In this document: piece after piece, positions 1,553 through 60,702 of the stretch
How positions within the stretch are numbered: position 1 is the stretch's first letter
Layout: every line of letters starts with the position of its first letter
DNA from: Labia minor
Taxonomy: Eukaryota; Arthropoda; Insecta; Dermaptera; Spongiphoridae
NCBI GenBank assembly: GCA_963082975.1
Contig: OY720349.1
Location: 50,697,962-50,761,961 of the forward strand
Direction of reading: 5' to 3'
Length of the DNA stretch: 64,000 bases
Made by a program: the position numbers and the translations under genes
Notes under the pieces: model-generated
Told to the model about the DNA's origin: nothing
The model's input: the letters and a program-made list of their open reading frames with translations, nothing else
The model's database searches: none

Positions 1553-2160
1553 ATTATCTCGCCAGAGATAGTATTGCGATCACGAAAAATGTGTAAAAAA
1601 GAGATGTTTTTATACGTTTTGAAGGTCCCTGAGTCATTTTTACTAAGTTTGAGAAAAATGTCTGTGTGTGTGTGTGTGTATGTAGACAAGATTACTCAAA
1701 ACCGATTTGAGATAGAATAATGAAATTTGATACACAGGCATTCAAAATTCGTAGTTTTCTATCAACTTTTGAGAAATGTAGATCATTCGGAAGAGAACCA
1801 TTGCCTACCATTTTTTTTTCATTTTTTTCCTCTAAAGTTACTATAAAAATAAAGATATATGTTTGATAGTTTTTCACATGATTAAAAATTGTATAAAACT
1901 ACTATATATAGAATTTCAGCTTGATTCAATCGCTGAAAGTATCGGAATTAATTTTTTAAATTTTTTAACACGTCGACTGCCAATCACGCGCCAGCACGTG
2001 ACGTGGTGTCATCAACAAAGAGCTAAACCCGTGCTGGTTTAATTAATATTATTTTTTAATTTATAATTTAATTAATTAAATTTAATTTAAATTTAATAAT
2101 ATAAAATAATATTAATCCAATTCAAATTCACAAGATAGTCGAGTGGAGACACTCCAGATT
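1553..2160 (+). mobile_element. Helentron-like non-autonomous element, family B, copy B1
   Basis: Nearly full-length copy of a 600-bp family. The head (ATTATCTC, family form ACTATCTC) folds on GAGATAGT through a GCCA loop and is followed by AGTATTG. A (TG)n block lies near 1664. The AAATTTG block follows, although the family's AACCGGAAG has decayed here. The tail carries AGATAGTCGAGTGG with the hairpin GAGTG-GAGA-CACTC and ends CCAGA before T. The 5' head inverted near the 3' end plus a terminal hairpin is the architecture known for Helentrons and their HINE derivatives. No protein is encoded. In this copy the tail inverted repeat is mutated (ACAAGATAGT instead of GCGAGATAGT), so it is probably an old insertion. 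Confidence 0.7.
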
Positions 2161-3520
2161 TTTAACTTTAAAATTCATAAGTTATAGATTATTATTATTC
2201 CAAAGATCTTCACAACAATTAAATTATTCTATATGGTCTTATTTTAAGTTTTATAATTTTAAATATCACTTAGGTACATTTTATCATTTAAATTTAAACA
2301 GGCATACATTATTTAGAAGCCTTATGATTTTTTTTTTAATATAGAAATATTAATGATATTATTAATGAAAATATTGATTTGGTTTAATAATTTCATAATT
2401 TATTTATTTAATTGTATTTTCATTTCGATTATTTGCGAATTTTAACCGATGCATTGCGTTTTATAACAAAAGAGATAACCCTTTCCAGCAGGTTAGACAT
2501 ACAAAAAAAGCTAATTCCTTTTTTTTTTAATTTTATTTCTATCTCTTTTCTCCCCCTCGTCTCATCTTTTTTTCCTCTTACTTCTCTTGTAATGTTAGTA
2601 GAGTTGAGTTTCAAATGTTTTTTAATTACATAACAAATATTTACAGTCATAATCATTCCATTAACGCTTAGCTGGTGGAAAATTGAGTGAATAGAACCAG
2701 AGAGAGTGAGGGAGATAGAGAACGAAAGAAGAGGATAGAGGAAAAAAAAAGAGTGAAGAGAGTTAAATGAAAGAATGTTTAACTATTATAATATGTATAA
2801 TTTGCCAGATTAACACAAATTATATACTTATAAGTAAAGAAAATAAATGAAAAAATGTAAGTATTAATTAAAATGAAATATTCATTGAATTTAATATTTG
2901 TAATATTTAAGTAAATAAGAGAATTGATTCTTATTTTTAATTTTCAAATTTAATATATAAATAATATTTTATAAAATAAAACGAAAAGTCTAAATTTTTA
3001 ATTTATATATAAAAATAAGGAATTCAATAACGTCTACTATGGAAATTATATCTAAATTATATAAATAGGAATTATAATTAACTTTATAATTCTTAATTTA
3101 GATACATATATATATTGTATATACAATTAATACATTCATTATTTACTTTAAAGTGTAAAGTTTACATCATCAATATCATCACAAATCTCAATTATATTTA
3201 TTATTATCATTATTATATTTATTGACGTCATTAGCATAGTTAATTAATTAAAAGTTAATGTTTAGCAAAAACAAATAAACCTTTTATATTCGAGATGGGT
3301 TGAATGTAATGAAGTGAATAGAGCCATTTAGGATATTATATTATTATCAATACAAACGTTGCTATCATTTTTATTTGTTATTGATAAAAATTAGTTAACT
3401 AGTAGTTAGGTGAAGTAAATTCATGAATTTTAATGGAATTATCAAGATGATTATTTATGATTTTTATAAACATTATTTATCTTTATATTTGTTTAGATAT
3501 TATCTTGTTTGTATATATAT
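2161..3520. other. AT-rich desert, no gene seen
   Basis: AT-rich sequence with a purine-rich GA tract (about 2698-2765) and a mirror-like pyrimidine tract near 2515-2590. The overlapping frames at 2412-2656 exist on both strands and only reflect these tracts. No known repeat ends were seen. Confidence 0.6.
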
Positions 3521-4099
3521 AGCCATGGGTTCTCAAAAACCGTTCTAACGATTTTTTTGAAATTCACACTAGATATAGTATTTATAAAGAAAAATTGAGT
3601 TTTATTGATCATATCTCAGGAAAAATACATCTTCATTATTTTTTCTTAATTTAAATTTATATATGGATGAAGTCACAAATGACATCCATATTGAAATTTG
3701 ACTCCCGCCTTTTTTTAAAGGATATTGTATTAATATTTTTTTTATATTTAAAATATTTTAAAATTTTTTATTTAATTTCGAAATAAAATTAAAAATATAT
3801 ATTTTAATAATATTTTATAATTATAAATTACGATATATATTTATCATTCTTCCAATAAAAAAAAATATTCATGCACTTAGAAACATAATAATACATATTT
3901 ATGTATTATTGAGGACCCCAAGTTCCATTCATTCAACATTTAATAATTGTAATAAATAATTAAAGAATTGTATATCAATATTTTTTAAAGGGTCGAGTGG
4001 GAGCTTGGTGTCCCAATTATTAATATTATCAGCCAAACCCAATAATAATTAATTTTTTTTTTAACTTAATTACCGAGCCGAAGCTCGGGGTCCCGGTAC
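3521..4099 (+). mobile_element. Repeat family F, copy F1 (relative of families A-C)
   Basis: Matches the minus-strand copy at 39139-39767 almost throughout. The left part (AACCGTTCTAACGA, then GAAATTCACACTAG) corresponds to the AACGGCTCAACCGA / GAAATTTGGTATA block of family A. The stretch with TTTTTCTTAATTTAAA and a GATG(A)AGTCAC site corresponds to family A's middle. The 3' end contains two related hairpins: one decayed (CGAGTGGGAGCTTGG, about 3994-4008) and one intact, CCGAGC-CGAA-GCTCGG, about 4075-4090. Each is followed by G(T/G)(G/T)TCCC. No head with a matching inverted tail was found, so this copy may be 5'-truncated or the family may be organised differently. Confidence 0.6.
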
Positions 4100-5370
4100 T
4101 ATATATATATATATAAGACTTTTTTTTTGCTATTTTAATTATTCTTATTGTATAATTTCTTAAATCTTTTTAAAAAAAAAAGAATTATAAATATAAAACA
4201 TTTTAACGAATTAAAAATAATTTTCACAAGAATACATCTTCCCATGCACCTCAATTATAATTTAATAAATGAATTTTAAATATATATTTTTTTTTATTTT
4301 TCATTATTATTATTCAAATGTAATGAGAATTTTAAAATGGAAAAAACAATTTTTTTATTCAATCAAAAAATATTATAATTTTAATACTCTCTTTTATTTT
4401 TAAATTGAAAATGATTTTCAAACATATAAATACTTAATAATCAATCAAATATATTTTACTTTTCCATGTAATTTGAATTGGAAACTCCCAGTATAATAAT
4501 AAACTTGAAATATTTTCCTTCACACAAACTTTCATTATTATTATTATTTTTTTAAAATAAGTAGTAATCTATTTATTTATTTTTCTATATGAAATTTAAA
4601 CAATTGTTCATTTTTCTTATTTTTTTAATTATTTATAAATCATTAATCTTTCTATTTGTTTCAGGTAATGTGCGACTTGGAATTTTTTTTTTAGTCTCGA
4701 TCATTAATGTAAGTACAATTTCTATAGAATTTATTGGTAAACTTTTCATATTTATTCTACTATACTTACCTAAATTTATTTATGATACTATAATTGGGAA
4801 AATCTTACATTTTTTAAATAAAAATTTCCTCAATTTGTAATTTCATGAAATTTCGTTCTCTTTGAAACTTTTTTTTTAAAGCATACCAACAAGCTTTCAT
4901 ACATCTAATGATCTAAAAACAACATTCAAATTGCATTTCATGAAATAAATTCATATAAAATCAATTAGTAGGGTAAACATTTCAAACACTATTTTAAAAA
5001 TAAATAATATTTTTTGATTCACCCTTTTATTTATTAAAATTTTAACATTTTATATTTAGAGTGGTTTAAAAATTCCATTTTTACGATCTCTCTATTTCTG
5101 AGCTTTGTAAATATTTATTCTTATTATACTAGCAAAAACATGTATGTAAATTGTTTTTTGATTACGGTCTATATCATTTTTATAAATTTTATTGCAAAGA
5201 ATTCTAAGTTGAAAAATCGATTTGAATAAGTCAGGAATGACGATTTTTTCCCCTAAGCTATTTTACAAACAAATCTATAAATGCATATTAAATCAAATAA
5301 AATATATATATATATAATAATAATATAAAGAATATTTTTATACTTTTTTCCGCAATATAAATGAAACTAG
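4100..5370. other. AT-rich desert, no gene seen
   Basis: Very AT-rich, with long T and A runs. The 83-codon frame at 4589-4840 is rich in Ile/Leu/Phe as expected from AT codons, has no homology I recognise and lacks any coding context. Confidence 0.6.
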
Positions 5371-5376
5371 CTGCTC

Positions 5377-5886: not shown

Positions 5887-5918
<32 letters not shown>

Positions 5919-6173: not shown

Positions 6174-6259
6174 TATATAAGATAAATATTGTTAAAGTAA
6201 ACCAGATATGCAAGTTTCTTTTTCTTTTTCATTCATGGCAGTGAGAAGGGTTAACAAAA

Positions 6260-7961: not shown

Positions 7962-8471
7962 ACCGACCGACGATAGGAAGAGAAGGTATTGTTTTCACAC
8001 CAAATTTCACATGTGGAGATTTTTACATATCTCCACGAATCATTCATTTTGTTAACAGAAAAAAGTATTTTTAGAATGATGCCTCTCCGTCTGTCCGTTT
8101 GTCCATTGTGTGTCCATATAAACGAGTATAGCTTAAACGCCCCAACGTATTTTGATAAAATTTGTTATATTTATTTAATGCATCAGTAACATGAATTCAT
8201 CAACTTTTGGTGTATATCCGGAAACCGGAAGTGGTAGTTTACAAATTATTAATTTTATATTCATTGTCCCAAAATATTTCACTTAAAATATAGTAGTAAT
8301 TATTTATTGAGTAATTAAACTAAAAATAAAAACCAAGATAATATAATTTAGTCATTTTAATTCAAATTTTAAAAATATTTTTTTTTGATACTTTATATAT
8401 ATAATGTTGTTTGGAAATTAATTTATTTCAAATCGTCGGTCGGTTCTGTCCCTGGCCACAGCTCTCATATT
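7962..8471 (+). mobile_element. Helentron-like element, family A, copy A1 (diverged)
   Basis: Starts with the family head ACCGACCGACGATAG after T and continues with TTTTCACACCAAATTTCACA, the pyrimidine-rich CTGTCCGTTTGTCC block, a decayed AACGCCCCAACG / TTGATAAAATTTG block and AAACCGGAAGTGG. The tail ATCGTCGGTCGG with CCTGGCCACAG is recognisable but mutated. The second internal module found in other copies is missing or unrecognisable here, so this is the most diverged copy in the window. The plus-strand frame at 7989-8189 is a translation of the repeat, not a gene. Confidence 0.75.
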
Positions 8472-9992: not shown

Positions 9993-10415
9993 ACCGACCG
10001 ACGATAGTAAGGGAGGTATTGTTTTCACACCAAATTTCACATGTGGAGATTTTTACATATCTCCACGAATCATGCATTTTCTTAACAGAAAAAAGTATTT
10101 TTAGCATGATGTCTGTCCGTCCGTCTGTCCGTCCGTATAGATGTGTACAGCCTGAACGGCTCAACCGATTTTGATGAAATTTGGTATATTTACTTAATGC
10201 ATCATCCAGCCATTCATGACGTCACAGCCTGGTCTTGCATATATATTATAAATAAAATAAAATTAAAAATGTTTATATTTATTATTTATGTATCCATATC
10301 TGTTTTTTATTACATTAATAGATAGATTAAAATTATTTGAAATTGTTTCTGTAGCTGGAAATTAATTTACTTCAAACCGTCGGTCGGTTCGGACCTGGCC
10401 ACAGGTCAACTTATT
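9993..10415 (+). mobile_element. Helentron-like element, family A, copy A2 (internally deleted)
   Basis: Intact head (ACCGACCGACGATAG), first body module, TGTCCGTCCG block and TTTTGATGAAATTTGGTATA, then a jump from AATGCATCA straight to TCCAGCCATTCATGACGTCA. About 200 bp, including the second internal module, is missing compared with full copies such as 42449-43069, and a 3-bp microhomology (TCA) sits at the junction. The tail CCGTCGGTCGGTTCGGACC, the hairpin GACCTG-GCCA-CAGGTC and AACTTATT are intact. Open frames at 9956-10325 are shadows. Confidence 0.85.
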
Positions 10416-14791: not shown

Positions 14792-14821
14792 ACCGACCGA
14801 TGAGTAAGAGAGGTATTGTTT
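14792..14821 (+). repeat. Solo head of family A (A3)
   Basis: ACCGACCGATGAGTAAGAG followed by AGGTATTGTT, then unrelated DNA. Only the first 30 bases of family A are present, that is the 5' hairpin plus GTATTG. A second solo head with the same breakpoint lies at 63464-63493 on the other strand. Confidence 0.7.
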
Positions 14822-23024: not shown

Positions 23025-23408
23025 ACTTTCCCGCATACTTCGTATAAGGGAAGTATTGGAATTGTCAAAAATTTCGACTTCGAGATTTCGATAGATCTTG
23101 ACGTTTTAGACCTCCCTGAGTCAGAAAATACCATTTTTCGAATTATCTCTGTGTGTGTGTATGTATGGATGTATGGATGTATGTAATGTTTGTCAGTGAG
23201 CGAATTTACTCAGAAACTAATCAAACTAGGACTTCGAAATTTGGTACACCGATATTATTTACAATTTGTAGATTTCTATCAAAATTTCGTCAAAATCGGT
23301 TAACCGGAAGTGGTACTTTACCTACACTGGTTGCGTCTACCTTTCAAGTAAAGTACCAGTTTGCTTCGAGATATTTGCTTCCTATTTTGTATATAGATTT
23401 AAAAATAT

Positions 23409-23660
23409 GAAAAAAATTCAGATACCAAATTTCATCATGATCTGACTACCGGAAGTGACATTTTACCTATACAAGTAGCGTTAGGTATAAATTATAAATA
23501 TATATAATAGTGTTAAACCAGTGGCGTACCTAAGGAAAAAAATTCAGATACCAAATTTCATCATGATCTGACTACCGGAAGTGACATTTTACCTATACAA
23601 GTAGCGTTAGGTATAAATTATAAATATATATAATAGTGTTAAACCAATGGCGGTGGGTGC
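23409..23660. repeat. 126-bp tandem duplication across the C1/hAT junction
   Basis: The block beginning at 23409 recurs at 23535 with exactly 126-bp period. It covers family C sequence (ATTCAGATACCAAATTTCAT, CTGACTACCGGAAGTGAC) and the left hAT target site GTGTTAAAC, plus the first bases of the hAT end. The first copy carries CAGTGGCGTACC, the second CAATGGCGGTGGG, so the duplication happened after the hAT had inserted and one breakpoint lies within the hAT terminus. Confidence 0.85.
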
Positions 23661-24111
23661 GGTCCGCACCGGGCGGCACTTATCTTGGGGCGGCATTTTT
23701 TATATTTAGTTATAGTTGTAAGTTTACCATTTGATTTATATAAATTATGATCAACTATATGATTTCGAATATTTTGTTCTGCAAAATTATCTTCGTTCTA
23801 CAATGAGTCAATTAAGACTACAAAATGTCAATAGAACAATAAATTACAAATAATATAAATTTTGAGAGCATTATACACGATTTTTCTAGTATGAAAGCTA
23901 GAAGAGTAAATATTATATAAATATGTTTACGAGTTCATACAAATATGTGTAAAAAAATTTACTCTCTGTGTATTAATTAATATTGATTAAATAACTTAAT
24001 AATTTATTTATGTGTATTAATTTATAAAAACCACTATTTGATTGACTTACAATAGAAAGGGCGGCAAACTGGAGATCGCCCCGGGCGTCAAAAGTTCTAG
24101 GTACGCCACTG
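23519..24111. mobile_element. hAT-like element (H2) nested in family C
   Basis: Ends CAGTGGCGTACC and GGTACGCCACTG form a perfect 12-bp inverted repeat. The 8-bp target duplication TGTTAAAC is present at 23511-23518 and 24112-24119. Inside each end are GC-rich blocks (GTGCGGTCCGCACCGGGCGG on the left, GCCCCGGGCGTC on the right) around an AT-rich core with no frame. Non-autonomous hAT. The left end is complicated by the 126-bp tandem duplication. Confidence 0.88.
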
Positions 24112-24300
24112 TGTTAAACCATTTTACTTTATAATTTAAATTAATTAGTTTGTTTATTTTTATTGTTGTTAATTATTTATGTTTTATAGTTCTCAAGATA
24201 ATGGTTAAAAATAACTTGTGATTTAATTTATTCTTTTAGGTAGTGTATTTCTATATTATTATTTTATATGCGGGAAAGTCTAGGGGAGTACACTCCCAAT

Positions 24301-26020
24301 TTTTTTTGGTTTGGATTTGTATAATACATATAGAAAAATTAAATATAGTTAAACCAATTGAATTTTTTATACAATATCTTTTAGTTGATTTCAATTATTT
24401 TTATTTTCGATTTTGATTCATTCACCCACACTCACCCCTATTCGCCATTATTCATTCCCTATTTATTCCTTCCTCAGGAATTGAATTGTATTTGTCCCAT
24501 TTAATAACATTTCAACGTGAGGAGGCGCGGTGGTTGTTAATCATCGTGTCAGCAATAAATGTCAATTTTAAAAAGAAATTCTTGACATATTTATCGAAGC
24601 CCATAAATTGTAAAATCAATAATATACAACCAACTCTTGTCGGCTGCTGGATTTGTTGTAGCAGTGAATATTTCCTCAATTGGTGAACAAACAATATCAA
24701 TCTCCATTCTTATCAGTTACCTACTTATTGATAACATTTAGAGAAAAAAAAATACATATCAACAATCAATTTACGAATATATATACAATATATTTCCATT
24801 TTACCCTGTTAATTCAATTTTAGTCAAATAAAATATTATTTATTCTTAAATATATATACTATTCTTCTATAATATATCATATATTATATTTTTATATTTT
24901 TAAGAAAAATAAAATAATCAACAAACTTTTTCATGCTTAAAAAATATTCATTAACTAATTATTTAATATATCAAAGTTTTTTTTTATGATTAATTAATAA
25001 ATTATTTCCCAAGTAAGTCAAGTCTGTTATTGATTTTAAGATTTCTTATATATCTTAATAATATTATTATCAGATAAAGAATGAAAGCGATTCAATCCAT
25101 ATACACCAAGTATCTGGTTTGTGAAATTATAGCTGCTGCTATTGTATTAAGGAAAATACATAGATAGTTATTATTCTATCTTAAAGGTATTTATTTTCCA
25201 CCGGTGAAAAGATAATTAATTAATTAATTAATTAATTCTCACACACTCGGGTGTTTAAAAACAATAAAGTGAATAATTTAATTCAATTTCGCTTGGTTGA
25301 TGGCAAATGATGGAAGGTGATTAGCAGACATCCAACGAACCATCCAAAACTATCGTGACTAAAAACAACGAGGCTAACCAACAAAATACATAAATTTACC
25401 AGGCAGAGGGAGTTGAGGAAAAACAATTCAATAACTTAATAACTTCGCGATTGTTTGTTCGATTTTCGTCAACATTTTGTGTCTCAATCAATTATACCTA
25501 AAATTACATTTTTCATAAAGATCTTAAAAAAAATAAATAAATAAATATTTTTGGCTGGTAAAAACAAACAAGTAAATCAATCTCTAAAATAATTAATTGC
25601 CTTAAGAACTTATTTAAGTTATTTAGGTTAGATTAAAAAAAATGAATAATGTTTATATTTAAAATTTCAAATATAATACATTTAATAAAAATTATTTTTC
25701 AATAGCTATTTTTAATAGTTATTCTCATATTTATATTTTTTAATGATAACTTTTTATTTCTATTTAAGAGTATCAAAGTTTTGACAAAGCAATTTATAAG
25801 CATAAATTATGAATTATAAAAAAATATTTTATAAATAATCTTTTTTTGTGTTAAATGAAGTCAAATTTATTTTTAAATTCTTGAAAAATTCAAATATGAG
25901 TTAAGTTTTCCTTGTTATATTCTAATTTATTTACATGACTTAACTCAAAAATCAAAATTGAAGCAATTCTGCTTTTAACAATTATGTTTATGTCTCCAAA
26001 TATTATAATATATTAATAAA
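24301..26020. other. AT-rich desert, no gene seen
   Basis: Contains (TTAA)n at 25213-25237 and a mixed patch near 24480-24700 where opposed frames of about 65 codons overlap (24486-24686 plus, 24512-24700 minus); neither is recognised. Confidence 0.55.
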
Positions 26021-30185: not shown

Positions 30186-30780
30186 TTTTCACACCAAATT
30201 TCACATGTGGAGATTTTTACATACCTCCACGAATCATGCATTTTCTTAACAGAAAAAAGTATTTTTAGCATGATGTCTGTCCGTCCGTCCGTATAGATGT
30301 GTACAGCCTGAACGGCTGAACGGATTTTGATGAAATTTGGTATATTTACTTAATGCATCAGTGGGATGAATTGATCAACTTTTGGTGCAAATCCGGAAAC
30401 CTGAAGTGGTAGTATTAGCGATCGACGATAGGAGGGGAAGGGTTATTTTCATACCAAATTTCACATGAGGAGATTTTTTATATATCATCACGAATTATTC
30501 ACTTTGCATTGGTTTTATACTCGAGAAAAATCATCTTTATTAGTTTTTTCTTAATTTAAAATTATATGACGTCATCCAGCCATTCATGACGTCACAGCCT
30601 GGTCTTACATATATTTTTATTATAAATAAAATAAAATTAAAAATATTTATGTTATATCCATATCTGTTTTTTATTACATTAATAGATATATTAAAATTAT
30701 TTGAAATTGTTTCTGTAGCTGGAAATTAATTTATTTCAAACCGTCGGTCGGTTCGGACCTGGCCACAGGTCAACTTATTT
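30186..30780 (+). mobile_element. Helentron-like element, family A, copy A4 (head missing)
   Basis: Begins inside the first body module (TTTTCACACCAAATTTCACA), so the 5' hairpin and ACCGACCG head are absent. The rest is complete: TGTCCGTCCGTCCG block, AACGGCTGAACGGA / TTTTGATGAAATTTGG, AAACCTGAAGTGGTAG, the internal second head-like module starting TAGCGATCGACGATAGG near 30416, paired TGACGTCA sites (30567-30574 and 30587-30594), tail CCGTCGGTCGGTTCGGACC and hairpin GACCTGGCCACAGGTC. The frame at 30111-30296 is a shadow. Confidence 0.88.
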
Positions 30781-31082: not shown

Positions 31083-31707
31083 AAATAAGTTGACCTGTGG
31101 CCAGGTCCGAACCGGCCGACGGTTTGAAGTAAATTAATTAGCAGCTACAGAAACAATTTCAAATAATTTTAATATATCTATTAATGTAATAAAAAACAGA
31201 TATGGATACATAAATAATAAATATAAACATTTTTAATTTTATTTTATTTATAATATATATTCAAGACCAGGCTGTGACGTCATGAATGGCTGGATGACGT
31301 CATATAATTTTAAATCAAGAAAAAACTAATAAATATGATTTTTCTCGAGGATAAAACCAATACAAAGTGCATGATTCGTGGTGATATATAAAAAAATCTC
31401 CTTTGGTGTGAAAATAACCCTTTCCTTCCTATCGTCGATCGCTAATACTACCACTTCCGGTTTCCGGAATTGCACCAAAAGTTGATCAATTCATCCCACT
31501 GATGCATTAAGTAAATATACCAAATTTCATCAAAATCCGTTCAGCCGTTCAGGCTGTACACATCTATACGGACGGACGGACGGACAGACATCATGCTAAA
31601 AATACTTTTTTCTGTTAAGAAAATGCATGATTCGTTGAGATATGTAAAAATCTCCACATGTGAAATTTGGTGTGAAAACAATACCTCCCTTACTATCGTC
31701 GGTCGGT
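31083..31707 (-). mobile_element. Helentron-like element, family A, copy A5; left arm of palindrome
   Basis: Full-length minus-strand copy: tail hairpin GACCTGTGGCCAGGTC region at 31091-31106, both TGACGTCA sites, AAACCGGAAGTGG block, TCCGTCCGTCCGT block and head CTATCGTCGGTCGGT ending at 31707. The tail inverted repeat has one change (GGCCGAC in place of GACCGAC). It faces copy A6 head to head across a 27-bp spacer. Confidence 0.9.
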
Positions 31708-31734
31708 AAAAAATACTACCGTAACAATATTTTT

Positions 31735-32396
31735 ACCGACCGACGATAGTAAGGGAGGTATTGTTTTCACACCAAATTTCACATGTGGAGATTTTTACAT
31801 ATCTCAACGAATCATGCATTTTCTTAACAGAAAAAAGTATTTTTAGCATGATGTCTGTCCGTCCGTCTGTCCGTCTGTCCGTCCGTCTGTCCGTCCGTCT
31901 GTCCGTCCGTATAGATGTGTACAGCCTGAACGGCTCAACCGATTTTGATGAAATTTGGTATATTTACTTAATGCATCAGTGGGATGAATTGATCAACTTT
32001 TGGTGCAAATCCGGAAACCGGAAGTGGTAGTATTAGCGATCGACGATAGTAAGGGAAGGGTTATTTTCACACCAAATTTCACATGAGGAGATTTTTTTAT
32101 ATATAACCACGAATCGTGCACTTTGTATTGGTTTTATCCTCGGGAAAATCATATTTATTAGTTTTTTCTTGATTTAAAATTATATGACGTCATCCAGCCA
32201 TTCATGACATCACAGCCTGGTATATATTATAAATAAAATAAAATTAAAAATATTTATATTTATTATTTATGTATCCATATCTGTTTTTTATTACATTAAT
32301 AGATATATTAAAATTATTTGAAATTGTTTCTCTAGCTGGAAATTAATTTACTTCAAACCGTCGGTCGGTTCGGACCTGGCCACAGGTCAACTTATT
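31735..32396 (+). mobile_element. Helentron-like element, family A, copy A6; right arm of palindrome
   Basis: Full-length plus-strand copy, at 662 bp the longest in the window because its CCGT/CTGT tract is expanded (about 31854-31911). Head ACCGACCGACGATAGTAAGG, second module starting AGCGATCGACGATAG near 32034, first TGACGTCA intact and the second mutated to TGACATCA, tail and hairpin intact. The 89-codon frame at 31761-32030 is a translation of the tract, not a gene. Confidence 0.92.
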
Positions 32397-37520: not shown

Positions 37521-38118
37521 ACTATCTCGAAAGAGATAGTATTGCGATCACGAAAATTTTCGATGTTGAGATTTTGATGTTTTTATAGGTTTTGAAGGTT
37601 CCTGAATCATTTTCACTAAGGTTGAGAAAAATGTCTGTGTGTGTGTATGTATGTAACCAAGATTACGCAAAAACGGTTTGAGCTAGAATGATGAAATTTG
37701 GTGCATGGTCATTATTCAAAATTCATAGTTTTCTATCAACTTTTGAGAAATGTAGCTCAACCGGAAGAGGGTCATTACCTACAATGTTTTGATTTTTTTT
37801 CTTCTAAAGTGACAGTAAAAATAAAGATATATGTTTGATAATTTTTCACATGATTAATAATTGTATAAAACTACTATATATAGAATCTCAGCTTGATTGA
37901 ATCGCCGAAAGTACAAGAATTAATTTTTTAACACTGCAAATCTCACGCGCCAACATGTGACGTGGTGCCATCAACAAAGAGCCAAACATGCGCTGGTTCA
38001 ATAAATATTATTTATTAATTTTAATTTATAATTTAATTAATTTAATTTAATTTAAATTAATATATGTTATTTAATCCAATTCAAATTTGCGAGATAGTCG
38101 AGTGGAGACACTCCAGAT
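37521..38118 (+). mobile_element. Helentron-like element, family B, copy B2
   Basis: Full-length. The head ACTATCTC pairs with GAGATAGT (loop GAAA here instead of GCCA) and is followed by ATTGCGATCACG. The body has GAGATTTTGATG, TTCCTGAATCA, a (TG)n-(TATG)n block near 37635, ATGATGAAATTTGGTGCA and CAACCGGAAGAGGG. The tail has GCGAGATAGTCGAGTGGAG and hairpin GAGTG-GAGA-CACTC, ending CCAGA before T. The inverted tail GCGAGATAGT matches the family head form ACTATCTCGC exactly. Confidence 0.88.
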
Positions 38119-39138
38119 TTTTTTTTATGTTTGATTTCGATTTTTTTATATTGGGTTAATAAAACAAAATGAGAATAATAATAAGATTTGATGAAGCAGA
38201 GAAAATAAATAAATAAATTTAATTTCATTAAAACGAGTCGTTAAGAGGTTAATGTTTCTAAAACTGAGACAGATCAGGTTGAGAGATATTCAAGTTTGTG
38301 TTCTGGGTATGAGGATAGGGAGAATTTATAAGAATCGGCATATTATTCAAATTTAGTCAAAAGTTTAATTGATTGGAAATGGGTTGTTTATTTATAGGCC
38401 ATTTATTTCTTGCTTCCTCCACCTTGCGTCTCTTGCACCCTTTCCAATCTTTCAATCATTCAGAATCCAAAATTCCTTGATTAGGAAATTGAATTAGTAA
38501 TTAAATTTTCTTTTCTTAATCACATCTATCAAGCGAAATTGAAACCATACGATTAAGGGGGATAAGAAAAATCAACATGTGGGTATATTAAACGATTATT
38601 TTATGCAAATACAATTGTGAGTATGTTTCTATCACTAAAAGAAAAAATAACCTGTCTATTCATGTAAGACAATGTTAATCTTCCAAGTATATACGATTTT
38701 AATTTTTCTGGTTGTTTTTACGTTATTCTGCATTGAATTCGTTATTATTTATTTTTTTAAATATTTGAAAAATTAGAATAATAAAAATATTACTAATCTA
38801 TATTTATCTATAATAATTTTCAACTATAATTTTTTTATAGTGTGAGATTAAAGAAATAATTTTTTATATAGTACATAGAATAATGAATGTGAATATAATA
38901 TATATTTGTCATAAATATAATAAATAAGGACTTTTAAATATTTAATGATGATTCTTAAAACAATAAATCCAGTTTATAAATGAATTTAAAAAAATTAATA
39001 TTTGTTTTTGTTTTTCTTCCAGGTAATTTAATCTCCAAATATTAATTAATTTGATGAACATAAACAAGTTGATGAAATTTTGTGAGTACCATAAATTTAT
39101 ATATTTAATGCTTGAATTTTACATAACATATAATATAA
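38119..39138. other. AT-rich spacer, nothing recognised
   Basis: No gene or repeat ends were seen; slightly more mixed near 38390-38480. The frame at 39051-39254 runs into family F and is a shadow. Confidence 0.55.
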
Positions 39139-42448: not shown

Positions 42449-43069
42449 ACCGACCGACGATAGTAAGGGAGGTATTGTTTTCACACCAAATTTCACATGT
42501 GGAGATTTTTACATATCTCCACGAATCATGCATTTTCTAAACAGAAAAAAGTATTTTTAGCATGATGTCTGTCCGTCCGTCCGTATAGATGTGTACAGCC
42601 TTAACGGCTCAACCGATTTTGATGAAATTTGGTATATTTACTTAGGGCATCAGTGGGATGAATTGATCAACTTTTGGTGCAAATCCGGAAACCGGAAGTG
42701 GTAGTATTAGCGATCGACGATAGGAAGGGAAGGGTTATTTTCACACCAAATTTCACATGAGGAGATTTTTTTATATATCACCACGAATCATACACTTTGT
42801 ATTGGTTCTATCCTCGGGAAAACCATATTTATTAATTTTTTCTTGATTTAAAATTATATTGACGTCATCCAGCCATTCATGACGTCACAGCCTGGTCTTA
42901 CATATATATTATAAATAAAATAAAATTAAAAATATTTATGTTATATGCCTATCTGTTTTTTATTACATTAATAGATATATTAAAATTATTTGAAATTGTT
43001 TCTGTAGCAGGAAATTAATTTACTTCAAACCGTCGGTCGGTTCGGACCTGGCCACAGGTCAACTTATTT
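42449..43069 (+). mobile_element. Helentron-like element, family A, copy A7 (best reference copy)
   Basis: Full-length, with the complete family layout. Head ACCGACCGACGATAG (42449) whose bases with the preceding T fold as TACCGACC against GGGAGGTA; GTATTG; CACACCAAATTTCACATG; TGTCCGTCCGTCCG tract; TTTTGATGAAATTTGGTATA; AAACCGGAAGTGGTAG; a second head-like module AGCGATCGACGATAGG from 42709, followed again by CACACCAAATTTCACATG; two TGACGTCA sites (42860-42867, 42880-42887); tail CCGTCGGTCGGT; hairpin GACCTG-GCCA-CAGGTC; AACTTATT before T. No coding capacity. Confidence 0.93.
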
Positions 43070-44665: not shown

Positions 44666-45040
44666 ACGATTTCGCCAGAGATAGTATTGGGATCACGAAA
44701 ATTTTCGAGATTTTGATGTTTTTATACGTTTTGAAGGACCCTTAATCTTTTTCACTAAGGTTGAGAAAAATGTATGTGTGTATGTAGACAAGATTACGCA
44801 AAAACGGTTTGAGCTAAAATAATGAAATATGGTCAAAATTTATAGTTTTCTATCAAATTTTGAAAAATATAGCTCATTTGAAGGTTCCTGAGTCATTTCC
44901 ACTAAGGTTGAGAAAAATAAACGGTTTGAGGTAGAATAATGAAATTTGGTATACGAGCATTATTCAAATTCGTAGTTTTCTATCAACTTATGAGAAATGT
45001 AACTCATTCGGAACAACAGGGTCATTACCTACCACGTTTT
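44666..45040 (+). mobile_element. Family B fragments, copy B3 (rearranged 5' part, first of a tandem cluster)
   Basis: Starts with a decayed head (ACGATTTCGCCAGAGATAG) and body through the TATGTATG block, GAAATATGGTC and TAGCTCATT. At about 44879 the sequence restarts at GAAGGTTCCTGAGTCATT and runs a second time through GAAATTTGGTATACG to GGGTCATTACC, where the next full copy begins. So B3 consists of two overlapping 5' pieces with a short internal duplication; the 3' half and tail are missing. Confidence 0.75.
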
Positions 45041-45047
45041 CATTTTT

Positions 45048-45158
45048 ACTATCTCGCCAGAGATAGTATTGCCATCACGAAAATTTTCGATGTTGAGATT
45101 TTGATGTTTTTATACGTTTTGAAGGTTCCTGAATCATTTTCACTAAGGTTGAGAAAAA

Positions 45159-45206
<48 letters not shown>

Positions 45207-45660
45207 GGCAAGATTACGCAAAAACGGTTTGAGCTAGAATGATGCAATTTGGTACATGAGCATTATTCAAAATTCATAGTTTTCTATCAACTTTTGAGAA
45301 ATGTAGCTCAACCGGAAGAGGGTCATTACCTACAACGTTTTGATTTTTTTTCCTCTAAAGTGACCGTAAAAATAAAGATATATGTTTGATAATTTTTCAC
45401 ATGATTAATAATTGTATAAAACTGCTATATATAGAATTTCAGCTTGTTTGAATCGCTGAAAGTACCAGAATTAATTTTTTTAACACTGCAAATCTCACGC
45501 GCCGACACGTGCCATGGTGCCATCAATAAAAATCCAAACATGCGCTGGTTTAATATTTATTATTTATAATTTATAATTAATTAAATTTAATTTAAATATA
45601 ATATATTATGTTATTTAATCCAATTCAAATTGCGAGATAGTCGAGTGGAGACACTCCAGC
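45048..45660 (+). mobile_element. Helentron-like element, family B, copy B4 (full-length, centre of cluster)
   Basis: Perfect head ACTATCTCGCCAGAGATAGT with AGTATTG. Its (TG)n tract is expanded to about 35 bases (45163-45197). AAATTTGGTACA is recognisable (ATGCAATTTGGTACA here) and CAACCGGAAGAGGG is intact. The tail GCGAGATAGTCGAGTGGAG with hairpin GAGTG-GAGA-CACTC ends at 45660. The frame at 44939-45232 is a shadow over the (TG)n tract. Confidence 0.9.
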
Positions 45661-45663
45661 TTA

Positions 45664-45983
45664 TTTCTTTCTCTAAACAGACCGTAAAAATAAAGATATG
45701 TTTGATATTTTTTCATATGATTAAAAATTGTATAAACTGCTATATATAGAATTTCTTGATTGATGCGCTGAAAGTACCGTAATTAATTTTTAACTCTGCA
45801 AATCACTCGCCAGCACGTGACGTTGTGCCATCAACAAAGAGCCAATGACGCGCTGGTTTAATAAATATGATTTATTAATTTCAATTTATAATTTATAATT
45901 AATTAAATTTAATTTAAATATAAAATATGTTTTATTTAATCTAATTCAAATTTGCGAGATAGCCGAGTGGAGACACTCCAGAT
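45664..45983 (+). mobile_element. Family B, copy B5 (3' half, end of tandem cluster)
   Basis: Directly after the B4 tail, sequence resumes in the family B middle (TCTAAACAGACCGTAAAAAT) and runs to a complete tail: GCGAGATAGCCGAGTGGAGA and CACTCCAGA. The tail inverted repeat has one change (AGATAGC). B3-B4-B5 therefore form a head-to-tail array over 1.3 kb with only the middle copy complete. Confidence 0.85.
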
Positions 45984-46600
45984 TTATTTCGCATTCTTTC
46001 ATTTCATTATCATTTTTTATTCAAAGATGTGACTTTTCTCTGAAAAAACAGGATTTCTACTTAGCTTTCAATAATTAAAATAAGCTACTCAGCATCTCTT
46101 ATTTCAAACAATAATTTATTCTATAATTATACAAAAGAAATATTTTCATCTTATTAATTATAATTTTAATAATTTACAAATACCAACACAAAATAACATA
46201 ATTTCTTTCCGAAAATATCCATACATTAATAATAAAACGATATTAAAAATATCTCCATTAATTTATGTTAATATATTATGATTATTTATAATCTATGAAC
46301 TCTCTTTCTCTCCCATCCACTTTTCGAGTTAACCGAGTTAAAATGCATTTAACATTATTATTATTAGTAGTAGAATTATTATGATTAATTAATGTTAAAC
46401 GTAATCAATGATTCATTAAACCAACTCAAACATTGAATCTAATATTTTATATCAAAACACCATTCATTAATTCATTCAAAATGCATTTTAATTGATATTG
46501 GAAATGATTTTATTAATGTAAATATGTTGTTGCTTGGCTCATAGTTTATTTTATTATTATTGCATTGCTTCATATGAAATGGACATTTTACTTGACATGA
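45984..46600. other. AT-rich spacer
   Basis: Nothing recognised. Confidence 0.6.
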
Positions 46601-48775: not shown

Positions 48776-49216
48776 ATAATAAAATTGTCTTTCTATAGGA
48801 AATAAATTTAGAACATAAAGACATCTAAAAGAAAATCAATCCTAATTTTTTGATAAAGAAAAGGAAAAATTAATATTTATTTATAAATAATAAAGAAAAA
48901 TGCTAAAACTATAGTAAAAATTATTTTTTTCAATATAAAAACAAATCTTGAATAATTTATTATATCTATTTATAACATGATGGAGGGGTATATTCTTGAA
49001 ATATTTTTTAAAAAAAAACCTATGCAAAATTAAAATTTTTATCTAATAATAATATATTTTCTAGGAATAGAATAAACTCATCATTATAATTATATTCACT
49101 GTTATAAAAGAGTTATAATAATCTCTCAATCCATGTTTCTAAATAAATAATTACTTTGCAAATCAATCGTGTGAGATCTCAAACTATGTAATGATGAAAA
49201 TTAACTCATTAAAAAA
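48776..49216. other. AT-rich spacer
   Basis: Nothing recognised. Confidence 0.6.
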
Positions 49217-49504
49217 AATCTGGAGTGTCTCCACTCAACTATCTCGCAAATTTTGATTGGATTAATAAACAGATGTATTTAAATTAAATTTAGTTAATTA
49301 AATTATAAATTAAAATTAATAAATAATATTTAGTAAACCAGCGCGTTTTTGGCTCTTTGTTGAAGGCACCACGTCTCGTACAGGAGCGTGATTGCCTGTC
49401 AACGTGTTAAAAAATTAATTCCGGTACTTTCAGCGATTCAATCAAGCTGAAATTCTATATATAGCAGTTTTATACAATTTTTAATCATGTGGGAAACTAT
49501 CAAA
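49217..49504 (-). mobile_element. Family B, copy B6 (3' half, minus strand)
   Basis: On the minus strand it runs from CATGATTAAAAATTG through GCTTGATTGAATCGCTGAAA, GTGCC.TCAACAAAGAGCC-like sequence and a run of TTTAATTTAAAT to the tail TTGCGAGATAGTTGAGTGGA and CACTCCAGA before T. The 5' half, including head and microsatellite, is absent. The tail inverted repeat GCGAGATAGT is intact. Confidence 0.85.
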
Positions 49505-49602
49505 GATCCTCCACATACTTTAAGTGCGCCTGCGTCCGTATCCTGGACATGTTCAGAAATAGCTACGAGAACAAACGTATTATATATTATAAATATATTC
49601 AT

Positions 49603-50064: not shown

Positions 50065-50680
50065 ACCGACTGACGATAGTAAGGGAGGTATTGTTTTCAC
50101 ACCAAATTTCACATGTGAAGATTTTTACATATCTCCACGAATCATGCATTTTCTTAACAGAAAAAAGTATTTTTAGCATGATGTCTGTCCGTCCGTCCGT
50201 CTAGATGTGTACAGCTTGAACGGCTCAACGGATTTTTATGAAATTTGGTATAATTATTTAATGCATCAGTATGATTTGGTGCAAATCCGGAAACCGGAAG
50301 TGGTAGTATTAGCGATCGACGATAGGAAGGGAAGGGTTATTTTCACACCAAATTTCACATGAGGAGATTTTTTACATATCACCACGAATCATGCACTTTG
50401 TATTGGTTTTATCCTCGAGAAAAATCATCTTTATTAGTTTTTTCTTAATTTAAAATTATATGACGTCATCCAGCCATTCATGACGTCACAGCCTGGTCTT
50501 ACATATATATTATAAATAAAATAAAATTAAAAATGTTTATATTTATTATTTATGTATCCATATCTGTTTTTTATTACATTAATAGATATATTAAAGTTAT
50601 TTGAAATTGTTTCTGTAGCTGGAAATTAATTTACTTCAAACCGTCGGTCGGTTCGGACCTGGCCACAGGTCAACTTATTT
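50065..50680 (+). mobile_element. Helentron-like element, family A, copy A8
   Basis: Full-length with a slightly changed head (ACCGACTGACGATAG) but a perfect tail CCGTCGGTCGGTTCGGACC and hairpin GACCTGGCCACAGGTC. It has the second internal module (AGCGATCGACGATAGG, from about 50311), both TGACGTCA sites (50461-50468, 50481-50488), and a small deletion where other copies have GGGATGAATTGATCAAC. Confidence 0.92.
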
Positions 50681-55046: not shown

Positions 55047-55888
55047 CAGAGGCTCCCAACGTATAGGTTGCGCCCACAGGGGGTAATTTACCTGTTCAAA
55101 AGGGTAATAGTAAAAATGGATGAGCGGTCAGGAGCCCATCATTTAGGCTACTAAGTGAACAAAGAAAAAAATTAATATTAAAAATAAGTTGACCTGTGGC
55201 CAGGTCCGAACCGACCGACTGTTTGAAATAAATTAATTTCCAGCTACAGAAACAATTTCAAATAATTTTAATATATCTATTAATGTAATAAAAAACAGAT
55301 ATGGATACATAAATAATAAATATAAACATTTTTAATTTTATTTTATTTATAATATATATGCAAGACCAGGCTGTGACGTCATGAATGGCTGGATGACGTC
55401 ATATAATTTTAAATCAAGAAAAAACTAATAAATATGATTTTTCTCGAGGATAAAACCAATACAAAGTGCATGATTCGTGGTGATATATAAAAAAATCTCC
55501 TTTGGTGTGAAAATAACCCTTTCCTTCCTATCGTCAATCGCTAATACTACCACTTCCGGTTTCCGGAATTGCACCAAAAGTTGATCAATTCATCCCACTG
55601 ATGCATTAAGTAAATATACCAAATTTCATCAAAATCGGTTGAGCCGTTCAGGCTGTACACATCTATACGGACTGACGGACAGACATCATGCTAAAAATAC
55701 TTTTTTCTGTTTAGAAAATGCATGATTCGTGGAGATATGTAAAAATCTCCACATGTGAAATTTGGTGTGAAAACAATACCTCCCTTACTATCGTCGGTCG
55801 GTAATTATGCATAAGCAACTTAGAGGGACATTTTAAGATTTTTAAAAAGTCTGATGGAACATTTTATAAAATAGATTGAGAAACACTG
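55047..55888. mobile_element. hAT-like element (H4) split by a family A copy
   Basis: Left end CAGAGGCTCCCAACGTATAG, right end GATTGAGAAACACTG (reverse complement CAGTGTTTCTCAATC). These match the common hAT terminus CAG(T/A)G(T/G)(T/C)TC(C/T)CAAC. The flanks ATCTCAAG and ATTCAAAG agree at 5 of 8 positions, compatible with a decayed 8-bp duplication. With the family A insertion (55182-55802) removed, about 220 bp remain, including TTGCGCCCACAGGGGG. Non-autonomous. Confidence 0.65.
55182..55802 (-). mobile_element. Helentron-like element, family A, copy A9, nested in hAT H4
   Basis: Full-length minus-strand copy: hairpin, tail (CCGACTGTTTG here, mutated relative to CCGACGGTTTG), both TGACGTCA sites, AAACCGGAAGTGG block, short GTCCGTCAGTCCGT tract, head CTATCGTCGGTCGGT ending at 55802. 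On its own strand it lies between T (…GCATAATT) and T (…ACTTATT/TTTAA), as expected for insertion at TT. Confidence 0.92.
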
Positions 55889-58800: not shown

Positions 58801-60086
58801 TGGAATTATTTATGCAATTTTGTGATAAATATGAATAAAAGTTCGTTGATAGTAATGCTTCCTAGCATTCCCAGATGTTTTATATTAAAATTTCAAAATA
58901 CACGAGTATTTTATATTTATTTTATTCAATTAAGATTTTTTGTTTATGCAAAAATAAATTGGATAATTTTAACTACAAAAAATATACAGTTGATAGATTA
59001 CTCAAGAAAACTTTAAATGTTACATAAAAAAAAAAAAATTATAAAAAGAAATCTTAAAATGCATTGCTAACATTTTTTGTTTTTATTTTTTACCTGTCAA
59101 TATTGCATATAAGACAGTATAGTATTGTCAACTGAGAAAAGAAATGTTGAGTCCATTAAAATTCCATTAATTCCACTTTCTCGTCCCTCCTTTTTCTCAC
59201 ATAGATAATGTAATATATTTGATTTTGCTTTTTTTATGCCCTCCGACATATATATAAATTACATGACATTTACATATCAACATATTAACATTTTAATTTT
59301 AACATTTTTTTTTTAAAAAAATAAAAAAAAAAAAGTAGAGGACGTAAGTGAAATGTTTCAAATAAATATTTATTATACTACTGATATAAATAAAAGTATT
59401 AGTTAATCAATATTATACTATTCATTATTAAGTAATTCTTCAGTTTTTAAAATGCAATTAAATCTTTTCAAAGGTGTCAGTGACCTCCGAGTCCTTTTAT
59501 AAACAAACGAAAATAAAAATGACCAACATTTTAGAAAGAAAGTATGTACTATTTTTTTATTTACGAATCACATTTATTATTATCTTTTAATTGTGCATTA
59601 AATCTTCAACTTGAATCTTCCGAATATCTAACCTTGTTGGTGTCGAAAATAGGGTAGAGGTATTTAAATAGGATATTTAAAAAAGCAAAGTTATTTATCT
59701 GTTTATATGAATAGAGAGGATTTAATTGACCAATAAAAATACTTACATATGTTATTATTTTATTTTTTATTTTTAGACAAAAGAAAACATTAAATTAATT
59801 AATTTAACTAATAAATAAATATAAATTTATATATCTTGTACTATAAGCGAAGGCATAAATAAATAAATATTTTTTTTTATTTCCTATTAATTTTAATTTT
59901 TAAATAAAATTGAAAATCATTTTTATCTAGAAGTATAAAATATAATTTATAAAAAAAACAACAATTATTAAGGCCAATGAGAATTTCATAAAATTAAATT
60001 AAAATTAAAATATCAAGAGTAAAATAATAATCATTTTATAGTTCAAACTCTCCAAATTCTAACTATTTAATATATTTTAAAATAAA
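55889..60086. other. 4.2-kb AT-rich desert
   Basis: Almost featureless AT DNA with long homopolymers. A slightly different patch at about 58440-58610 (ATGACTGTGTGTCTGTAACC, TTGGATTCGAGTAGAGC, TTTCGAAAATTCGG) resembles the words used in the family A-C bodies but no ends were found. The 64-codon frame at 58822-59016 is not recognised. Confidence 0.55.
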
Positions 60087-60532
60087 TCGGGAGTGTCCTC
60101 CCCTAGACTTTCCCGCATAAAAATAGGTAATTAGGTTATTATTATTATGATTTAACAACAATAAAAATAAACAAACTAATTAATTTAAATTATAAAGTAA
60201 AATGGTTTAACACTATTATATATATTTATAATTTACACCTAACGCTACTTGTATAGGTAAAATGTCACTTCCGGTTGTCAGATCATGTTGAAATTTGGTA
60301 TCTGAATTTTTTTCATATTTTTAAATCTATATACAAAATAGGAAGCAAATATTTCGAAGCAAACTGGTACTTTACTTGAAAGGTAAACGCAACCAGTGTA
60401 GGTAAAGTACCACTTCCGGTTAACCGATTTTGACGAAATTTTGATAGAAATTAACAAACTGTGAATAATATCGGTGTACCAAATTTCGAAGTCCTAGCTT
60501 GATTAGTTTTTGAGTAAATTTGCTCACAGACA

Positions 60533-60563
<31 letters not shown>

Positions 60564-60702
60564 CATACATACACACAGACATAATTCGAAAAATGGTATT
60601 TTCCTACTCAGGGAGGTCTAAAACGTCAAGATCTATCGAAATCTCGAAGTCGAAATTTTTGACGATTCGAATACTTCCCTTATACGAAGTATGCGGGAAA
60701 GT
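60087..60702 (-). mobile_element. Helentron-like element, family C, copy C2 (full-length)
   Basis: Minus-strand copy with head ACTTTCCCGCATACTTCG ending at 60702 and tail TATGCGGGAAAGTCTAGGGG at the left, giving a near-perfect 12-bp inverted match. Hairpin GGGAG-GACA-CTCCC, ending CGA before T. A (TATG)n microsatellite (60535-60574) occupies the position of the TG/CCGT tracts in B and A. AACCGGAAGTGGTACTTTAC and CGAAATTTGGTACACC are intact. It shows what C1 looked like before the hAT insertion and tandem duplication. Confidence 0.92.

Follow-up and report, generated by a model that had tools for sequence, protein, structure and literature searches.

The window analysed here is a 64,000-nucleotide stretch of the genome of the earwig Labia minor. 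It contains three related families of short, gene-less rolling-circle elements, A, B and C. A preliminary description of this DNA held that the families share one homologous body, while their heads differ completely and each head must have changed together with its inverted copy near the 3' end. The locus thus raises the question of what is shared, what has changed and what keeps the two ends of an element matched. We believe that A, B and C are, very probably, non-autonomous Helentron derivatives (HINE, or DINE-1-like), moved by a coding Helentron that keeps the same ends.

Families, layout and copy number

Heads with at most one mismatch occur in the window 18 (A), 7 (B) and 4 (C) times, against shuffle means of 0.03, 0.80 and 0.16; the presence of three heads, as first described, is far above chance. 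The 604-Mb source genome holds 22,269 exact A head strings (including A heads inside C composites), 13,490 of B and 3,089 of C. Exact tails number 13,380 for A and 2,707 for C, and reversed-pattern controls for all five genome counts gave 0 matches. Some 39,000 sites with an exact head should be annotated correctly, as Helentron derivatives.

The layout is common to the families: a T-run, the 5' subterminal repeat, its own partial inverse, a microsatellite (GTCY repeats in A, TG/TATG in B and C), the inverted 3' copy, a hairpin and a T-run (Table 1). The subterminal inverted repeats have 11 identical letters in A, 12-13 in C and 10 in B; A and C reach the 11-bp family rule of PMC4067079, and B is one letter below it. 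The inverse that follows each head, overlooked in the preliminary description, is a perfect 8 bp in B, imperfect in C and weak in A. The inverted copy of a family's own head near the 3' end, followed by a family-specific hairpin, is present in all three families as originally reported; the stems are of 5-6 bp, and the 3' loops read GCCA in A, GAGA in B and GACA in C (TACA in element C1 of the window). The B 5' loops read GNNA in 96 of the 100 listed B copies. A GNNA loop rule was not adopted, since only about four loops are independent and two of eight unrelated window hairpins (both strands) fit it too.

Table 1. Copies of the three families and their terminal structures (positions in the window)
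Feature	Position	Strand
A1, A element with head and tail, diverged	7962..8469	+
A2, A element without internal second 5' unit	9993..10413	+
A 5' fragment: head (1 mismatch) and inverse arm	14792..14820	+
A3, A element, 5'-truncated, A tail present	30186..30777	+
A4, full A element	31086..31707	-
A5, full A element; head-to-head with A4, 27 bp between	31735..32394	+
A6, full A element, reference copy	42449..43066	+
A7, full A element, one head mutation	50065..50677	+
A8, full A element; one tail mutation; only two Ts before head	55185..55802	-
A 5' fragment	63465..63493	-
B1, full B element	1553..2161	+
B2, full B element	37521..38120	+
B3, outer B element, interrupted by B4	44666..45985	+
B4, inner B element in T-run of B3; 3' boundary uncertain by ~4 bases	45048..45667	+
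B5, 3' part of B element	49216..49507	-
Element C1, C element with nested hAT-like insert and 126-bp tandem duplication	23025..24301	+
Element C2, uninterrupted C element, reference copy	60085..60702	-
B 5' hairpin ACTATCTC-GCCA-GAGATAGT, head and its inverse	45048..45067	+
A 3' end: inverted head, hairpin GACCTG-GCCA-CAGGTC, AACTTA, T-run	43031..43066	+
B 3' end: inverted head, hairpin GAGTG-GAGA-CACTC, CAGCTTA, T-run	45632..45663	+
C 3' end: inverted head, hairpin GGGAG-GACA-CTCCC, GATTT	60085..60118	-

Subterminal repeats, a 5' inverse, a 3' hairpin, T-rich insertion and the lack of coding identify these elements as HINEs, i.e., non-autonomous, DINE-1-like Helentrons. A canonical Helitron (5'-TC, 3'-CTRR, insertion between A and T) was rejected: the 5' end is a T-run followed by AC, insertion is into T-runs, and among the 3' ends CTTA, CTAA and ATTT only CTAA was noted as fitting CTRR. 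Stop-to-stop frames of at least 110 aa number two in the whole window and none inside the elements; ten window ORFs had no Pfam match, and the window gave neither a tRNA (ARAGORN) nor an Rfam match at gathering scores. In viral contigs the five family patterns had 0 matches, and the core word TTTGATGAAATTTGGTA occurs in 44 stretches, and no family profile (A, B or C) matched any of these at E values of 10 or less. Genome contigs outside the source genome, searched with the A tail only, gave no match.

Heads, tails and their pairing

A complete difference between the heads is not borne out: those of B and C (ACTATCTCGC and ACTTTCCCGC) agree at 8 of 10 letters, two being different, and only A is set apart. 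The B-C 5' ends and the B-C 3' ends each align above all 2,000 shuffles, which rules out unrelated B and C heads. For the other 5' ends, shuffles as good were 1 of 2,000 (A-C) and 34 of 2,000 (A-B), and the A 5' inverse AAGGGAGGTATTG matches AAGGGAAGTATTG of C at 12 of 13 letters. No clear relationship links the A tail and its hairpin to B or C: shuffles as good numbered 37 (A-B) and 432 (A-C) of 2,000 with the sample consensuses, and 258 and 483 of 2,000 in another test. The outermost ends are partly common to the families, with AC after the 5' T-run and, often, CTTA before TTT at the 3' end. CTTA precedes the T-run in 11 of 12 distinct A tails, 7 of 32 B tails and 10 of 22 C tails, a feature absent from the preliminary description; the other endings are CTAA in B and ATTT in B and C.

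The C regions had originally been chosen by the C head; therefore, pairing was measured from tail positions, the scope being the 89 exact C tails below 22 Mb of chromosome C1. A same-strand exact C head lies 200-2,600 bp upstream of 63 of them (three on the wrong side), these pairs resting on positions, not on a reading of each element. An A head on the same strand lies within 150-2,600 bp of 42 of 59 A tails (one on the wrong side). Among the 26 C tails lacking an exact C head, one (in L054) has a C head with a changed inverse, 20 were fetched and read, and five were not fetched. Eleven of the 20 (L081, L083, L084, L087, L091, L092, L093, L095, L096, L098, L100) have a C head with up to three letters changed or with a changed inverse; L089 keeps the C 5' end from position 12 onwards; L086, L088, L097 and L099 are 5'-truncated; L085 and L094 extend beyond the stretch fetched; in L090 an A 5' piece is fused to a truncated composite; and L082 has an A head and a C tail. 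In L090 and L099 an A head stands upstream of the truncated composite, and both are possible further A-headed C-tail cases. The 77 C tails with a resolved 5' end comprise 76 with C and one with A (two more possible). On one chromosome, the positions of A and C heads are strongly tied to those of their own tails, and matched ends are preferred, not absolutely required. A shared body with co-changed head and tail is supported between families, not between copies; the earlier wording that the ends "must" have changed together is too strong because L082 exists.

Many C copies carry an internal A head. Exact A heads lie 448-478 bp inside six of ten C copies checked, and in the commonest exact-head C form an intact A head, identically oriented, sits between the C head and the C tail. 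L063, in which the composite was read from end to end, has 441 bp from the C 5' end, then about 515 bp from the A 5' end and finally a different 3' part with the C tail. Considering this composite and the rarity of A-head/C-tail elements (one clear, at most three, versus 76), Helentron transposition may require or strongly prefer matched subterminal repeats read by one Rep, the nick sites and hairpin design being common to the families; we offer this tentatively, as a proposal somewhat short of even probability. If it is true, mismatched escapees such as L082 would be raw material for new end combinations.

The ends might instead have been swapped by recombination, with a new head-plus-tail set placed onto an existing body, e.g., by nesting or read-through, and not have drifted in step. 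We consider this rather unlikely, even though nesting and composites are common, L082 joins an A head to a C tail, and A retains part of the body and the 5' inverse next to a tail and hairpin not clearly related to those of B and C. Swapping of recognition sequences, as suggested in the preliminary description, could at most apply to A. B and C have the look of ordinary drift in which substitutions were matched, and their heads and tails, homologous and few substitutions apart, can be accounted for without a swap. The composite and L082 represent passenger or mismatched configurations, none of the loci examined shows one family's body flanked by both ends of another, and C tails begin with the C 5' end in all but one of the resolved cases.

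An equally improbable explanation is that head and inverted tail base-pair on a single strand, and that selection for this pairing, not protein recognition, keeps the match. The consensuses of A and C, like the main form of B, do indeed have a fully complementary head and tail. However, the ongoing selection for pairing envisaged in the preliminary description is contradicted in resident copies, where head and tail mutations are never matched: 0 matched changes among five head and five tail mutations (13 window copies), 0 compensated among 18 head and 13 tail changes (44 sample rows, three of them spurious, namely one A row from an internal second A unit and two B rows with a nested-C tail), and 0 among seven deviations in the 5' hairpin arms (29 B copies). 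One B subfamily has a changed final head letter that 8 of 8 tails fail to match. This evidence concerns resident copies; selection in the source elements is possible.

The common body, insertion sites and a coding partner

Body consensuses were derived from 47 A, 29 B and 25 C heads (window and genome sample). In block 2 (45 bp before GAAATTTGGTA to 8 bp past CGGAAG) all three pairs align, with 0 of 2,000 shuffles as good in each; with the microsatellite masked the result is 0 of 1,000 per pair, and the order of parts is the same. In block 1 (TATTG to the microsatellite) the figures are 0 of 2,000 for B-C, 1 of 2,000 for A-C and a weak 45 of 2,000 for A-B, and when whole A and B bodies are aligned locally without anchors the score is not significant (68 and 98 of 500 under two scorings). 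The homologous body thus stands for block 2 in all pairs and for block 1 in B-C and A-C, but is weak for A-B in block 1; the expectation that bodies align and heads do not is borne out by block 2, but B and C heads align too. The two A-B results leave some room for reading the likeness of A to the B and C bodies as low-complexity words or convergent short motifs; it is nevertheless highly improbable overall and refuted for block 2, which beyond its microsatellite core exceeds every shuffle in three pairs in the same order.

At least four Ts precede 12 of 13 window heads (background 2.4%). Four nested insertions, including B4 within B3, which provides an empty site inside the window, all lie in T-runs of 6-8 and show no target duplication beyond ambiguous Ts. 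They agree with the proposed TT insertion and, unless a T or TT is duplicated, with its lack of duplication.

A coding element with B ends, Helentron-B, lies at chromosome C1:47,862,609-47,874,777 (-) and spans 12,169 bp. Its 5' part has the B head and B positions 1-531 at ~93%, an A 5' piece is present in its 5' leader, and the B tail lies 1.25 kb past a frame of 2,181 codons, Rep-PIF1 with an endonuclease-like C-terminus (Pfam PF14214, E 1.3e-23; PIF1, E 1.9e-31; PF14529 endonuclease, E 8.3e-5, under its curated cut-off). The Rep motif VEFQMRGSPHEH has the S given as diagnostic of Helentrons (PMC4067079). In a second copy the last 300 aa are matched by three pieces (93-97%), of which one contains a stop; the two copies share 249 bp at 99.2%, ending just past the B tail and its CTAATTTT. 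The tail is thus found in two copies and the head in one only. The reading of the Helentron copy at chromosome C1:44.69 Mb as one with C ends was rejected: this copy has its own B tail and is inserted into a composite-C-type element, to which the C tail at the predicted place belongs.

The genome has 104 Rep matches. About 3 kb upstream of four further ones (L074, L075, L077, L078) no A, B or C head was found in coding orientation, a weak search because the Helentron-B head is ~6 kb upstream of the Rep domain. At another Helentron-like locus, C9:34.49-34.51 Mb, which has a frame of 1,785 codons, the element ends were not found. An autonomous Helentron for each head/tail pair, as anticipated, was therefore obtained for B, but not for A and C. 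The anatomy, the four nested insertions in T-runs and, for B, a Helentron with both head and tail uphold the Helentron/HINE reading made at the outset. Cut-and-paste MITEs with subterminal inverted repeats, also short, gene-less and numerous, are the least credible alternative, since the 3' repeat is clearly internal, a 3' hairpin is present, no duplicated target sequence is seen apart from ambiguous Ts, and B ends occur on a Rep-helicase partner.

Layout, copy number, T-run insertion, the absence of ORFs and the B ends around a Rep-PIF1 frame are direct observations. We presume that each family is a shortened element keeping the ends of a coding Helentron, whose Rep/helicase/endonuclease would move the derivatives by rolling-circle replication into T-runs. 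Within each family, Rep presumably recognises the subterminal repeat at both ends; a source lineage could then change the repeat only at both ends, derivatives would inherit the matched pair, and old copies would decay without constraint. The 3' hairpin would be a stop signal whose stem may drift while pairing persists, and the shared outer ends (T before AC, CTTA before T) would be nicking and joining sites. B and C would be sister lineages a few matched substitutions apart; A would have replaced head, tail and hairpin, keeping part of the body and the old 5' inverse. Against this explanation stand the A and C partners not found, the single-copy head and sub-threshold endonuclease of Helentron-B, the mismatched L082 (possibly L090 and L099), the unmatched head change in the B subfamily, the weak A-B block 1, and the lack in B and C of the GTCY microsatellite of DINE-1.

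Related systems

How a Helentron enzyme defines both ends is apparently unsettled in the literature; the altered-end tests that we located concern a canonical Helitron only, Helraiser, in which a changed stem of the 3' hairpin (StemX) was tolerated and a changed loop (LoopX) was not (PMC4778049). Here one genome offers three abundant families whose bodies and outer ends are partly common and whose subterminal repeats differ, together with a composite that holds a foreign head, so that end compatibility can be measured by counting.

A, B and C belong to a known kind of element, and changing repeats and hairpin stems are already known from DINE-1, in which both were found in 2008 to differ with pairing kept (12 species, three D. 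willistoni types; PMC2374699). Like DINE-1/INE-1 of Drosophila, our families have subterminal inverted repeats of similar size, a 5' partial inverse, a 3' hairpin, a microsatellite in a conserved 5' block, no ORF and a TT preference; unlike it, they have other sequences, TG/TATG instead of GTCY in B and C, and three families in one genome (PMC2374699).

Metaseiulus occidentalis likewise has several HINE/Helentron families in one genome, distinguished by subterminal repeat, with deletion derivatives of Rep/helicase/endonuclease elements and T-rich, unmodified target sites; however, its repeats are palindromic without a separate 5' inverse, and the 3' repeat is 38-60 bp from the end (PMC4067079) against ~22-28 bp here. 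The portion of PMC3630058 available to us describes two DINE-1-like families of Calliphora vicina in one 600-kb region: Helitron2_Cv, as here, has 11-bp subterminal repeats, a 5' partial inverse, a microsatellite and a 3' hairpin, whereas Helitron3_Cv is given without a 3' repeat, and that portion contains no three-family comparison. Fusarium oxysporum FoHeli1 and FoHeli2 (PMC5148889) resemble our families in having 5' hairpins that differ in stem sequence and recur, each in inverted form, near the 3' end, and in the ATTTT 3' end, but are fungal Helitron2-type elements of ~5-6 kb with GAA triloops.

Layout and kinship of the families

The A, B and C heads recur in the window far above chance, against a background of about 25% GC and abundant short repeats; an ORF scan of the window found no long frame. 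In the assembly, the window runs on the + strand of contig C6 from 50,697,962 to 50,761,961. Thirteen window copies have both ends (seven A, four B, two C), and the additional ones are truncated. The families share one order: a T-run, the head, its own partial inverse ending TATTG or TATTC, a microsatellite-bearing body, the inverted head copy, a hairpin and a short 3' end passing into Ts. The leading run has 4-6 Ts in 12 of the 13 two-ended copies; the remaining one, A8, has two. The two C copies are of unequal length because the first holds a hAT-like insert (ends CAGTGGCGTACCT / GGTACGCCACTG, bordered by TGTTAAAC repeats) and a 126-bp tandem duplication, which includes part of the flank of the insert.

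A elements carry an internal duplicate of their own 5' end, about 84% similar, in which the head has decayed to AGCGATCGACG; it is absent from A1 and A2. One A pair lies head-to-head, 27 bp apart, within T-runs and on opposite strands. All 13 exact ACCGGAAG sites in the window (e.g. 23303, 42691, 60411) are inside elements; ACCGGAAGTG presumably resembles an ETS-factor site.

Coordinates of the features discussed
Feature	Location	Strand	Remarks
C copy C1	window 23,025-24,301		contains hAT-like insert and 126-bp duplication
hAT-like insert	window 23519-24111		in copy C1
Internal duplicate of A 5' end	window 42707-42801		also at the equivalent place in other A copies
Head-to-head A pair	window 31707-31735
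Repeat pair	window 3505-4112 / 39741-39128		unrelated to the families; 88-90% identity
Repeat pair	window 46600-46764 / 47758-47923		unrelated to the families; 88-90% identity
Helentron-B (coding element)	contig C1:47,862,609-47,874,777	minus	12,169 bp
Ulp1-like match	L079:2895-3560	minus	Helentron-B C-terminus
Second Helentron-B copy	contig C1:44.69 Mb
A head with C tail (L082)	contig C1 ~1,592,950-1,593,680
Element with palindromic head	L067 ~1129	minus	blind inverted-end scan

The preliminary description contrasted a shared body with wholly different heads. The latter does not hold for B and C, whose heads are identical in 8 of 10 letters and whose 5' ends and 3' ends each score above all 2,000 shuffles; their bodies likewise align above shuffles. 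Over their whole length, B and C seem to be sister families; A is the outlier. The A tail and hairpin have no clear alignment with B or C, its body 3' of the microsatellite aligns with both (0 of 2,000 shuffles against either), and its 5' inverse AAGGGAGGTATTG nearly equals that of C, AAGGGAAGTATTG; A therefore looks like a lineage in which head and tail changed and the 5' inverse lagged behind. The outermost ends are partly common: elements start with AC after a T-run, and the 3' end reads CTTAT in 11/12 distinct A tails, 7/32 B tails and 10/22 C tails (CTAAT in 9/32 B tails; others are ATTTT-like, different or unparsed). The differences are mainly subterminal, and the proposed contrast is half right.

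Insertion in T-runs is supported. Four nested insertions give readable empty sites (B in B in the window, A in A in L053, C in B in L054 and L087, the last three stretches being from elsewhere in the genome). All four lie in T-runs of 6-8, and the target is restored without duplication save one or two possible Ts, the exact boundaries being ambiguous because of the runs.

Co-variation and the autonomous partner

The view that head and tail change together is supported between families but not within resident copies. The 13 two-ended window copies have five head and five tail deviations, and the window with the genome sample (44 rows, three of them spurious) has 18 and 13; none is matched in either set. 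The ten C rows have no deviations, their regions being mostly picked by exact head. In 29 B copies, seven deviations in the 5' hairpin arms include no compensated one. Window B copies depart from consensus at 4/40 head, 3/50 tail and 183/2,378 body letters; therefore, resident heads and tails decay about like the body. A B subfamily with the 5' loop GTAA for GCCA and a changed last head letter retains the old tail in 8/8 two-ended copies. Co-variation is a property of family founders, not of resident copies, as expected if selection acts at transposition and copies decay afterwards. A blind scan for inverted ends found a further element with a palindromic head GAAGTGAAAACTTC, a matching 3' repeat and a hairpin.

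Whether an autonomous Helentron carries each head/tail pair had been proposed as a check. The genome (604 Mb, 71 contigs) has 104 PF14214 matches, and one of these loci, Helentron-B, provides such an element for B. The B head and 5' hairpin open Helentron-B, which matches B at ~93% over positions 1-531 and continues into an A 5' piece. Its open frame of 2,181 codons carries PF14214, PIF1 and the Rep motif VEFQMRGSPHEH. At the C-terminus there is a sub-threshold PF14529 endonuclease match and a resemblance to Ulp1 (PF02902, a C48 protease) that falls slightly short of the cut-off (E 9e-4); none of the papers listed by our literature search covers Helentron and Ulp1 together. The B tail lies 1.25 kb beyond the frame. 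Over its final 44 bp the element shows 98% identity to window copy B4 and as much as 100% to B copies from the sample, and in the preceding stretch similarity to B is limited to a short match of 53 bp; therefore, this tail is not simply a B HINE end. In the second copy, which had inserted into a composite-C-like element, fragments of the C-terminus match at 93-97% protein identity, one of them interrupted by a stop. The two copies have 249 bp in common (99.2% identity), and this stretch finishes immediately beyond the B tail with its CTAATTTT. B derivatives therefore match a Helentron by both ends (head in one copy, tail in two). Separately, seven Rep matches of equal score (E 2.6e-55), six with open frames of 1,651-1,652 aa, represent a possibly recent rolling-circle element.

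A natural test of end compatibility

Exact heads number 22,269 (A), 13,490 (B) and 3,089 (C) in the genome, and exact tails 13,380 (A) and 2,707 (C); these are lower bounds per family, the A head count includes A heads within C composites, and reversed-pattern controls gave no matches. In the first part of contig C1, the own exact head lies upstream on the same strand for 63/89 C tails and 42/59 A tails, and on the wrong side for three and one, respectively. C pairs form two main length classes, 375-770 bp (18/63, most ~580) and 1,032-1,267 bp (41/63). The long class, where read (L063 and further copies), is a composite: the C 5' end (441 bp) leads into an A 5' piece of ~515 bp with its head intact and without the A tail, and a different sequence then runs to the C tail. 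Six of the ten C copies that were checked have an exact A head in their interior, 448-478 bp in. Tail-less A 5' pieces of 513-531 bp ending near the same T-rich place were seen in L063, L076 and L090, the settings being composite C, the Helentron-B leader and the side of a truncated composite.

In composites, the A head is flanked by the C head and the C tail and shares their orientation. If heads and tails could be combined freely, elements with an A head and a C tail would be expected to be common. A C 5' end was found for 76/89 exact C tails (an exact head by position for 63, a head with altered letters for 12, one of them in L054, and a decayed head for one), and an A head with a non-C flank for 1/89. 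Another 7/89 have a truncated or ambiguous 5' end, and 5/89 are outside the fetched set. In two of the seven (L090, L099), a truncated composite is preceded by an A head, and these may likewise count as A-headed. Matched ends are a strong preference and no absolute requirement. This fits one Rep recognising both head and tail; an A Rep inactive while composites spread would also fit the rarity of A-headed elements. The interest is a countable test of end compatibility; our literature search found no such test in Helentrons, which is no proof of absence.

Mechanism and known systems

The reading we prefer is that the Rep of each family nicks at the T-run, recognises both the 5' and the 3' copy of the subterminal repeat, and stops at the 3' hairpin; such recognition of the repeats in Helentrons is our inference. 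The hairpin step is supported by Helraiser, a canonical Helitron: stem exchange kept ~90% activity, and a loop change (closing pair included) or a swap of the whole hairpin for an Arabidopsis one was as harmful as deletion (PMC4778049). One would then expect A, B and C to have stems that differ yet are of similar size.

T-run insertion without duplication is as reported for Helentrons (PMC4067079). The architecture is that of 12 Drosophila genomes, where subterminal repeats vary between species and among three D. willistoni types, and compensatory mutations were suggested to maintain the hairpin (PMC2374699). Seven families with differing subterminal repeats are reported in one mite genome (PMC4067079), two families of this kind in one fly region (PMC3630058), two fungal families with the 5' hairpin and 3' repeat matched within and different between families (PMC5148889), and a lepidopteran element with similar parts (PMC4344730). 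The co-variation itself is therefore already in print. The head-tail finding is real, well supported and of a known kind; the additions here are the three families, their sister/outlier relation and the composite test.
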